Assembly: GCF_900112815.1 (NCBI RefSeq)
Contig: NZ_FOND01000002.1
Span: forward strand, 214,551-278,550
Reading direction: 5' to 3'
Origin: Blastococcus tunisiensis
GTDB lineage: Bacteria; Actinomycetota; Actinomycetes; Mycobacteriales; Geodermatophilaceae
DNA: 64,000 nucleotides
Shown: one piece after another, positions 22,837 to 27,649 of the stretch
How positions within the stretch are numbered: position 1 is the first letter of the stretch
Layout of the letters: each line of letters opens with the position of its first letter
Notes under the pieces: generated by a model
What the model was told of the DNA's origin: nothing
What the model saw: the letters and a program-made list of their open reading frames with translations, nothing else
Databases searched by the model: none
Program-made: the position numbers and the translations under genes

Positions 22837-23655
22837 TAGCGAAGCGAGGACGGCCTGGGCCCAGCCTTCGCCCATGGCAGCCCCGGTCACGGCCGCGTTG
22901 GGGACGTCGTCCAGGCGCCCCCGCATGCCGTCGACGGAGGCGCCGTTGGCGGTGATCCACAGTCGGCCGACCGCGGGTGCCATCTCCAGGTCGCTGACGC
23001 TGTCGCCGATGGCGACGGCGTCGGCGGGGTCGATGCCCCGGCGCGCGAGGTCCCAGGCGATGGCGGCGCCCTTGGAGATGCCGCGCGGCATCAGGTGGTA
23101 GACGTGCGGCGGCCCCGCGTCCTCGTCCAGGCCGAACCGCGTCGTCGCCGGGATGGCGCCGTTGTCGTTGAGCGTGAGCCAGCCGGCACCCTGCTCGGCC
23201 AGCCAGGCGTCGACCGCCACCGGATCCACCCGGCCGCGCAGCAGGGCGTCGGTGGCGTGGGTGGCGTGCCACGGTGCGTGCCACTCGAGCCGGCCGGGGT
23301 GCTGCGCGATCAGCTCCTCGACGATCCCGAGCTCGGCCATCACGTCCATCGGGGTCCGGCCGGCGTACCGCTCGGGCAGCTCGCCGGGCAGCCGGTGCCG
23401 GTTGCGCCCGGCGTCCCAGGCGATCGTGGCGCCCAGTTCGGCGATCGCACCGTCCGCGGCGAAGATCCGCGCCGCCTCGATCACCTGCTCGAACGTCCGC
23501 CCGCTGACCAGCACCAACGGCACTCCGGCGCGGTGCAGCGCCATCAGTGCGGCGGCCGGGTCGGCGGTGAGGTCGCGGCCGGCGGTGTGCCAGAACGAGC
23601 CCCGCGGGCCGACCATCGTGCCGTCGAGATCGGTGTAGACGATGCGGGCGGTCAC
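22834..23655 (-). CDS. HAD-superfamily (Cof/MPGP-like) phosphatase
   Basis: The 273-residue HAD hydrolase has motif I Asp9-Leu-Asp11-Gly-Thr, motif II VLVSGRT, the motif III lysine in PRGISKGAAI, and motif IV GDSVSDLEMA. The insert of about 85-190 fits a C2B cap as in Cof and mannosylglycerate phosphatase types. The substrate is not predictable. GTG start, divergent from the thrC riboswitch. Confidence 0.88.
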   Translation of the reverse strand: MTARIVYTDLDGTMVGPRGSFWHTAGRDLTADPAAALMALHRAGVPLVLVSGRTFEQVIEAARIFAADGAIAELGATIAWDAGRNRHRLPGELPERYAGRTPMDVMAELGIVEELIAQHPGRLEWHAPWHATHATDALLRGRVDPVAVDAWLAEQGAGWLTLNDNGAIPATTRFGLDEDAGPPHVYHLMPRGISKGAAIAWDLARRGIDPADAVAIGDSVSDLEMAPAVGRLWITANGASVDGMRGRLDDVPNAAVTGAAMGEGWAQAVLASL

Positions 23656-23698
23656 ATCTCACATCCTGACCGTCCGCCGGACCGGCCCGCGGACTGGG

Positions 23699-23704
23699 TA
23701 CAGT
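23699..23704 (+). promoter_or_regulatory. Candidate -10 for the thrC transcript
   Basis: TACAGT lies 14 bases before the riboswitch P1 helix, the spacing expected if transcription starts at about 23711. No clear -35. Confidence 0.35.
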
Positions 23705-23717
23705 TCTGCGCGTTCCA

Positions 23718-23845
23718 CTCATCCAGAGGGGCAGAGGGACACGGCCCGACGAAGCCCCGGCAACCGCCGCTCCACGCGCATGCGCGGACCGGAAGGTGCC
23801 AATTCCGTCCCGCACGGCTCGACGGCCCGGTGCGGGGAAGATGAG
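23718..23845 (+). ncRNA. SAM-I riboswitch (S-box leader) preceding thrC
   Basis: The conserved SAM-I core is present: P1 strands CTCATC (23718-23723) and GATGAG (23840-23845), the kink-turn and J segment CAGAGGGGCAGAGGGAC, GGCCCGACGAAGCC-CCGGCAACC, then GGTGCCAATTCC. A P4 stem follows (CCCGCAC with GTGCGGGG). The 3' P1 strand runs into the Shine-Dalgarno GAGGAGGT (23843-23850), with the thrC ATG at 23860, so ligand-stabilised P1 would compete with the ribosome. No separate terminator is seen. The identification is by motif; a covariance search was not run. Confidence 0.9.
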
Positions 23846-23859
23846 GAGGTAGTCGTCGC

Positions 23860-25161
23860 ATGACTCTGACCGCTCCCGGCTCGGTCCAGGCCGATTCCCA
23901 CGCCCACGGCCCGGTCCCGCCCTGTCCCGCCCGCGGCCTGGTGTGCCGCAACTGCGGGGCCACGTTCGGGCTGATCGCCGAGCACGCCTGCGCGGAGTGC
24001 TTCGGCCCGCTGGAGGTCGACTACGACCCAGAGCTCATGCGCGCGGTGACCCGCGAGCAGATCGAGGCCGGTCCGCAGAACATCTGGCGCTACGCAGGCC
24101 TGCTGCCGGTCGGGCAGGACCCCGCCGACCGCGTGTCGCTCGACCCGGGGCTGACCCCGCTGGTGCGCGCCGACCGGCTCGCCGCCGAGCTCGGCCTCAC
24201 CGGCGGCCTCTGGGTCAAGGACGACTCGGCCAACCCCACCCACTCCTTCAAGGACCGGGTGGTCAGCCTCGCCGCCACCGCGGCCAAGCGCCTCGGCTAC
24301 ACCAAGATCGCCTGCGCCTCGACCGGGAACCTGGCCAACTCGGTGGCCGCGCACGCCGCCCGCGTCGGCCTGCCCTCCGTCGTCTTCATCCCCAGCGACC
24401 TCGAACCGGGCAAGGTCGTCCAGTCGGCGGTCTACGGCCAGACGCTGGTCGCCGTGGACGGGTCCTACGACGACGTCAACCGGCTGACCAGCGAGCTCGC
24501 CGAGACCGACGAGTTCGAGGACACCGCGTTCGTCAACCAGAACGTCCGGCCCTACTACGCCGAGGGCTCCAAGACGGTGGGCTACGAGATCGCCGAGCAG
24601 CTCGGCTGGCGGATCCCGGCCCAGGTCGTCATCCCCATGGCGTCGGGCTCGCTGCTGACCAAGGTGGACAAGGCGTTCCGCGAGCTCGCCGCGGCCGGCA
24701 TCGTCGAGGCCACCGAGTGGACCGTCTTCGGCGCGCAGTCGGCCGGCTGCGACCCGATCGCCACCGCCTTCGACAACGGCTGGGACGTCGTGAAGCCGGT
24801 CAAGCCGAGCGGGATCGCCAAGTCGCTGAACATCGGCAACCCCGCCGACGGCCCGTACGCCCTCGACGCCATCCGCCGCACCGGCGGCTCGGTCGGCCGG
24901 GTGGGCGACGAGGCGATCGTCCAGGGCATCCGCGACCTCGCCCGCACCACCGGCGTCTTCGCCGAGACGGCCGGCGGCGTCACCGTGGCGGTGCTGCGGC
25001 AGCTGGTCGAGGACGGGCGGCTGGACCCGGCCAAGGAGACCGTCGTCCTCAACACGGGGGAGGGGCTGAAGACCCTCGACCCGCTGGAGCCGGTGGTCGG
25101 GCCCACCCACCGCGTGGAGCCCTCGCTGAAGTCCGTGCGCCAGGCCGGCCTCATCGGCTGA
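23860..25161 (+). CDS. thrC: Threonine synthase
   Basis: PLP fold-type II enzyme converting O-phosphohomoserine to threonine. The 433-residue protein is the long form with an N-terminal zinc ribbon (Cys29, Cys32, Cys44, Cys47). The PLP lysine is Lys131 in HSFKDRVVS, and ASTGNLANSVAAHAA follows. The 3' end carries NTGEGLKTLD. A SAM-I riboswitch lies directly upstream. The order thrC, cold-shock gene, groL resembles that I recall in Streptomyces. Confidence 0.94.
   Translation: MTLTAPGSVQADSHAHGPVPPCPARGLVCRNCGATFGLIAEHACAECFGPLEVDYDPELMRAVTREQIEAGPQNIWRYAGLLPVGQDPADRVSLDPGLTPLVRADRLAAELGLTGGLWVKDDSANPTHSFKDRVVSLAATAAKRLGYTKIACASTGNLANSVAAHAARVGLPSVVFIPSDLEPGKVVQSAVYGQTLVAVDGSYDDVNRLTSELAETDEFEDTAFVNQNVRPYYAEGSKTVGYEIAEQLGWRIPAQVVIPMASGSLLTKVDKAFRELAAAGIVEATEWTVFGAQSAGCDPIATAFDNGWDVVKPVKPSGIAKSLNIGNPADGPYALDAIRRTGGSVGRVGDEAIVQGIRDLARTTGVFAETAGGVTVAVLRQLVEDGRLDPAKETVVLNTGEGLKTLDPLEPVVGPTHRVEPSLKSVRQAGLIG

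Positions 25162-25306: not shown

Positions 25307-27649
<2,343 letters not shown>

Follow-up and report, generated by a model that had tools for sequence, protein, structure and literature searches.

A SAM-I riboswitch with its P1 helix on the Shine-Dalgarno sequence precedes a gene that is most likely metM in Blastococcus tunisiensis and other Actinomycetes

The closest described counterpart of the locus studied here is metM of Streptomyces albulus, which has a SAM riboswitch upstream and whose product, in the summary given by PMC12172450 (citing Hasebe et al. 2024, AEM 90:e01247-24), is a homocysteine synthase that converts O-phosphohomoserine to homocysteine. The same summary reports that a sulfur-carrier-family gene adjoining a cyanobacterial MetM homologue resembles S. 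albulus metO, and that a protein from a cyanobacterium, sharing 51.6% identity with S. albulus MetM, formed threonine from O-phosphohomoserine in vitro and also deaminated threonine, its methionine-forming activity not being cleanly shown; from the threonine synthesis of this relative it follows that the MetM clade may keep threonine synthase activity. In S. lividans TK24, RF00162 was placed before SLIV_16930-SLIV_16925 under the label 'threonine biosynthesis', and transcription was reported for 21 of the 22 elements listed with it (PMC8079986). CysM/CysO of Mycobacterium tuberculosis are listed in PMC12910592 as a thiocarboxylate-dependent cysteine synthase.

The locus described here lies in a stretch of 64,000 nucleotides of Blastococcus tunisiensis (the window). 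It resembles S. albulus metM in its upstream SAM-I element and through Streptomyces relatives that, among the matches listed, have SAM-I before and a sulfur carrier behind the gene; compared with S. albulus metM/metO, the window lineage differs in lacking a linked metO, in keeping metY-metX and in having a family-specific GGAGGTAGTCGTCG spacer. The S. lividans TK24 unit, as presented in PMC8079986, likewise has RF00162 in front of genes given a threonine label, but it comprises two genes, the first of which would be the MetM orthologue, whereas the window has a single gene. With CysM/CysO of M. tuberculosis the likeness lies in PLP enzymes that share a Pfam family and in a ThiS-like carrier, and the window genome has a Mec-CysO-CysM operon of its own; the difference lies in the reaction, which leads from O-phosphoserine to cysteine for CysM and from O-phosphohomoserine to homocysteine for MetM. 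A metM with an upstream SAM riboswitch is already described in Streptomyces, and the window locus would be a further member of that kind. Its main features, in window coordinates, are these:

23699..23704, + strand: -10-like element TACAGT, 13 nt before P1 (sequence reading and family alignment)
23716..23847, + strand: SAM-I (S-box) riboswitch aptamer, RF00162 (Rfam cmscan)
23718..23723, + strand: 5' strand of P1, CTCATC (sequence, cmscan and fold; the same in 106 of 106 class leaders)
23840..23845, + strand: 3' strand of P1, GATGAG (sequence, cmscan and fold; the same in 103 of 106 class leaders)
23843..23850, + strand: Shine-Dalgarno sequence GAGGAGGT, sharing 3 nt with P1 (sequence)
23860..25161, + strand: probable metM, 433 aa, a PLP enzyme of fold type II bearing an N-terminal Cys4 motif; family models call it threonine synthase

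In a cmscan search of the whole window RF00162 matched 23716-23847 (+) over the full model (1-108) with 70.8 bits (E 1.6e-14) against a gathering score of 44.4 bits, which confirms the SAM-I aptamer that a preliminary description of this DNA had read from the letters; this was the one SAM-I match reported in the 5.04-Mb window genome. P1 to P4 are all present in the minimum-energy fold of the window leader, but its folding energy is no better than that of shuffled sequences (z -0.27), so the case for SAM-I rests on the covariance model together with conservation. As a full-length, above-cut-off match with a presumed methionine-pathway gene downstream the element resembles other members of RF00162; it departs from the typical ones in that the window leader has no terminator and a near-invariant P1 is fused to the Shine-Dalgarno sequence (SD), with no separate expression platform. 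In the family alignment a -10-like hexamer, TAGAGT or TACAGT, occurs in most Geodermatophilaceae relatives, and a promoter scan of the window leader returned zero promoter matches. A -10 element fixed across the class was considered and rejected, since the TAnnnT peak took in a minority, 13 of 106 leaders at a single position, against a shuffle maximum of 5.

The association of this aptamer with this gene extends through the class. In a sample of 148 class genomes of 90% completeness or more, 111 had SAM-I, and the window protein was matched in all 148 with two sets of scores, 106 orthologues of at least 371 bits and a next score of 232. SAM-I lay upstream on the same strand in 106 of these 106 orthologues, at -19 to 311 nt from the aptamer end to the start of the protein match, and only 9 of 115 SAM-I matches in the class were away from an orthologue. 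Within Geodermatophilaceae, by reading of the tables by eye, SAM-I was found in 56 of the 57 genomes, next to a full-length MetM in 55; the remaining two are a genome with a cut MetM fragment and one, 79% complete, with neither aptamer nor gene. Among the matches listed, all 18 Streptomyces loci carry the P1 text pattern, and the Streptomyces orthologues are 59-62% identical to the window protein.

The protein itself scores above the cut-off of the TIGR00260 'threonine synthase' model (243 against 167.1 bits) and misses that of NF006050 (280 against 303 bits). It is the long form with a zinc-ribbon-type cysteine pattern, as had been claimed, C29, C32, C44 and C47 being invariant in 20 orthologues, and its K131 aligns with what we take to be the PLP lysine. 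A canonical thrC lies at another place in the window genome, within hom-thrC-thrB (thrB, homoserine kinase, was recognised by eye), and the 358-aa ThrC is 40% identical to the window protein. Besides the window protein two clear members of the threonine synthase family were found, ThrC and a divergent paralogue. A tree of 67 proteins placed 36 of 36 sampled orthologues of the window gene on one side of a branch with support 100/98, and 21 canonical ThrC in a separate clade with support 100/100. Canonical ThrC (TIGR00260; PDB 1uim, 2d1f) shares the fold family and the PLP lysine with MetM, which differs from it in its separate clade, its N-terminal Cys4 extension and its changed phosphate-site residues. 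Residues S155, R160 and N188 of the T. thermophilus enzyme, with numbering checked on the alignment, are presumably phosphate ligands; at these positions S, R and N stand in 21 of 21 ThrC, and in the MetM clade there are N (35/36), Y (36/36) and S (36/36), with R230, K268 and K321 as new invariant residues. The window protein thus neither clusters with the ThrC of hom-thrC-thrB nor keeps the residues of the presumed phosphate site. The divergent paralogue, third of the threonine-synthase-like proteins (377 aa; L004 1492-2625, genome C33), has a very long branch; no claim is drawn from one TS3 row of the tree, which stands on a long branch.

Because the gene belongs to its own clade, is constantly preceded by SAM-I, frequently has a sulfur carrier beside it and coexists with a separate canonical thrC, it fits metM and is most likely metM, the match to S. 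albulus MetM being one of description, and its product is a putative homocysteine synthase. The threonine branch, to which the controlled gene had been assigned in the preliminary description, has its canonical thrC in hom-thrC-thrB, and the Streptomyces match of the window gene is described as MetM. The regulatory logic built on that assignment was rejected along with it: in place of high SAM lowering threonine synthesis, control of metM by SAM would be ordinary methionine feedback, the comparison with the SAM-activated threonine synthase of plants is not apt for a gene whose place on the threonine branch is not supported, and the paradox of threonine synthesis under SAM control most likely vanishes. 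That the gene encodes a true second threonine synthase, with SAM-I lowering threonine synthesis at high SAM, is an unlikely reading. The TIGR00260 score, the in vitro activity of the cyanobacterial relative as summarised in PMC12172450 and the label given to SLIV_16930-SLIV_16925 in PMC8079986 are in its favour; it is opposed by the existence of thrC in its own operon, by clade and residues, by the constancy of SAM-I with a sulfur carrier often adjoining, and by the more frequent absence of MetX where the gene is present. Actinomycetes genes annotated as 'threonine synthase' behind SAM-I are therefore likely misannotated and most likely metM.

The MetX comparison was made at more than 300 bits, because no genome of the 148 passed the TIGR01392 cut-off of 500 bits and the scores show a gap from 313.6 to 168.6. 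Genomes lacking the orthologue had MetX in 38 of 42 cases and those carrying it in 48 of 106 (Fisher p 2.6e-7, with genomes treated as independent and kinship ignored), and metA was found in 3 of 148 class genomes; this distribution agrees with the metM reading. That the gene is metM could explain why 58 of 106 sampled gene-carrying genomes manage with no MetX match above 300 bits. The window genome has metY-metX, so metM is not the sole route there, which counts against the metM reading.

Relatives keep the placement of P1 on the ribosome site. In the window the SD GAGGAGGT begins with the three bases that end P1, as the preliminary description had stated, and the ATG of the controlled gene follows at 23860. 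The P1 pattern is kept in Geodermatophilaceae loci (30 of 30 fetched through Rfam and 29 of 29 fetched through the protein), and conservation extends class-wide, where 79 of 106 leaders have an SD-like tetramer starting within the final 3 nt of P1, a count taken without a chance control, and the distance from the end of P1 to the chosen start codon is 8-20 nt (median 15) in 106 of 106, with start codons picked by our own scoring of SD strength. From 60 Geodermatophilaceae loci, 43 distinct leaders were obtained by dropping duplicates and requiring a pattern that contains P1; P1 is identical in all 43, as the selection demanded, and since it does not vary there, covariation is uninformative for P1 in this family. 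In 35 of the 43 a common GATGAGGAGGTAGTCGTCG is followed by one base and ATGAC, P3 and P4 being variable. The P1 text pattern was present in 72 of 80 named loci among the matches listed. Of the other eight, all but L320 were inspected. In four (L319, L326, L333 and L345, among the matches listed) GATGGG faces CTCATC, a one-sided change from U-A to U-G that keeps the pairing, and in two (L305 and L342, likewise among the matches listed) GATGAG is present and CTCATC is absent at the expected distance; L306 contains no leader. The GATGGG leaders belong to three Actinomadura records and one actinobacterial MAG. P1 on the SD is a tight design, conserved class-wide and now quantified, which makes metM leaders well suited to testing whether a SAM-I aptamer can control translation directly.

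Our preferred reading, which we hold to be quite probable, is that of a SAM-I riboswitch before metM, encoding a homocysteine synthase that uses O-phosphohomoserine and a thiocarboxylated carrier, and that SAM switches translation off through P1 on the SD. MetM would draw O-phosphohomoserine from the threonine branch and take its sulfur from a thiocarboxylated sulfur carrier, and the homocysteine would go into methionine and SAM. At high SAM the aptamer would close P1 (CUCAUC/GAUGAG) against and over the SD; in the window leader P1 may also lengthen through CC/GG and the start codon may enter a small hairpin, so that translation falls. When SAM is short, P1 would open and the ribosome could bind. 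Control at transcription instead of at the ribosome site, for example through a Rho-dependent or a missed terminator, appears improbable: no terminator-like site was detected in 23600-23950, in agreement with the earlier statement that no intrinsic terminator is seen, and the gap of 8-20 nt between P1 and the start leaves little room for one.

Folding of the window leader bears on the sign of this translational control through three further candidate features:

23715..23716, + strand: CC, a pairing candidate for the GG of the SD (23848-23849) that would lengthen P1 across a small internal loop (constrained folding)
23851..23865, + strand: possible hairpin AGUCGU/AUGACU (23851-23856/23860-23865), in which the start codon would be paired once P1 has formed (folding only)
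23853..23857, + strand: UCGUC, a candidate competitor that could pair GAUGA (23840-23844) when P1 is open (chance-level)

With P1 forced, the two G of the SD at 23848-23849 had unpaired probabilities of 0.08 and 0.21 and the AUG was mostly paired. The consensus fold of Geodermatophilaceae has only one pair of the CC/GG kind, in another register (23715-23848; C-G or U-G in 41 of 43 leaders), and the hairpin at 23851-23865 found no covariation in its support. When the 5' strand of P1 was blocked, the AUG became freer (unpaired 0.81, 0.51 and 0.45) and release of the SD was not seen (GG unpaired 0.08 and 0.14); the SD was open (0.77-1.0) when P1 was unavailable and the upstream CC was omitted as well, and the 3' part of the leader folded alone left the AUG mostly free (0.83-0.92). 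Modelling of the window leader thus frees the AUG without showing release of the SD, and would fit an OFF switch in part only. The GAUGA/UCGUC competitor was demoted to a mere possibility, since pairing of the GATGA type shows no enrichment in the class (4.7 families observed, 5.2 expected). Another element is enriched, in family-weighted counts over 26 families: a 5-bp pairing of UGAGG at the P1/SD junction with a downstream CCUCG reached 13.0 families against 1.2 expected (shuffle maximum 4.9), and a plain complement of GAGG 16.9 against 1.9. Its sign is ambiguous, since competition with P1 and masking of the SD are both conceivable, and the window leader has no CCUCG motif. The earlier view that the switch is almost without an expression platform therefore stands insofar as P1 is itself the direct coupler, and falls short for the many families with a downstream CCUCG/UGAGG pairing.

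Opening energies across the 106 leaders leave the sign of control undecided and folding does not settle it either, so that SAM as an OFF signal for metM, which we regard as most likely, is drawn mainly from the pathway. The opposite sign, with a UGAGG/CCUCG-type hairpin hiding the SD in the absence of SAM and P1 formation freeing it, is the least probable of the alternatives: the enriched pairing, the paired GG of the window leader with P1 blocked and the opening averages (8.5 kcal/mol from SD to AUG without P1, 5.0 for the stretch beyond a formed P1, over regions that differ) would suit it, but it has no metabolic rationale for an enzyme of the methionine pathway, 79 of 106 leaders have an SD that overlaps P1 itself, the start codon of the window leader is freer without P1, and that leader has no CCUCG.

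In Streptomyces we take the gene behind metM to be metO, whose product would donate sulfur as a thiocarboxylate. A sulfur carrier of the ThiS/CysO type lies directly downstream of 78 of the 106 class orthologues, a count that includes G004 and G060 with less than 10 nt of downstream sequence and some others with less than 1 kb, and of the 78 linked carriers 62 end in AGG and 14 in GGC. Among the matches listed the carrier is present in 17 of 18 Streptomyces loci, the 18th ending 76 nt past the match, and was found neither in 11 loci of Geodermatophilaceae type (two of them cut short) nor in those of Micromonosporaceae and Frankia (some of them short). In the window genome no linked metO was found within 2.5 kb of the gene, which also counts against the metM reading. 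There, metM is followed by genes recognised by eye as cold-shock protein (25350-25562) and groEL (about 26000-27649), and a cold-shock gene 353-364 nt behind metM is also seen in the relatives L051 and L052.

Four ThiS-family matches were obtained in the window genome, among them the CysO of the Mec-CysO-CysM operon and a MoaD2-like carrier. Against a profile of linked MetO the two unlinked proteins scored 125 bits (CysO) and 85 bits (MoaD2-like), and the carriers of the named loci, among the matches listed, 151-167 bits. By this difference between the two, CysO is the likely sulfur donor in the window genome as judged from sequence, so that MetM there would be served by the unlinked CysO (or by the MoaD2-like protein). 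CysO (L179 1489-1764, genome C18) ends in AVAGGC, one Cys past GG, and adjoins a JAB-type (Mec-like) gene and CysM; the 14 metM-linked carriers ending in GGC look likewise as if trimming were needed. We put forward tentatively, as somewhat doubtful, that where metM has no metO linked to it (Geodermatophilaceae, Micromonosporaceae, Frankia), CysO supplies CysM as well as MetM, and that the SAM riboswitch of metM, coupled through P1 to the ribosome site, is a valve that splits O-phosphohomoserine with threonine and carrier sulfur with cysteine. If so, one thiocarboxylated protein would serve both sulfur amino acids.

Some SAM-I sites stand apart from metM. In Geodermatophilaceae there are six second sites (L277 to L282), shorter at about 95 nt, of which four (L277, L279, L281 and L282) were examined. 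At L277, L279 and L281 the protein behind the site has MetN as its best model (294-300 bits, cut-off 499.7), and the gene behind the site of L282 matches no known family; three MetN-like transporter ATPases behind SAM-I are in line with metM belonging to a methionine regulon. At L173, L174, L175 and L177, SAM-I stands before peroxiredoxin-like proteins, sulfonate-type ABC ATPases and an acetate-CoA ligase-like protein, the match in this last case being below the Rfam cut-off. In three loci of one family (L068, L071 and L076 in G085, G095 and G115) a large additional stretch is inserted between the two strands of P1 in SAM-I. Lastly, SPQJ01000032.1 (L283), titled 'UNVERIFIED_ORG: Bacillus sp. 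AZ43', encodes a protein 95% identical to that of the window and is for this reason probably from a Blastococcus-type organism.
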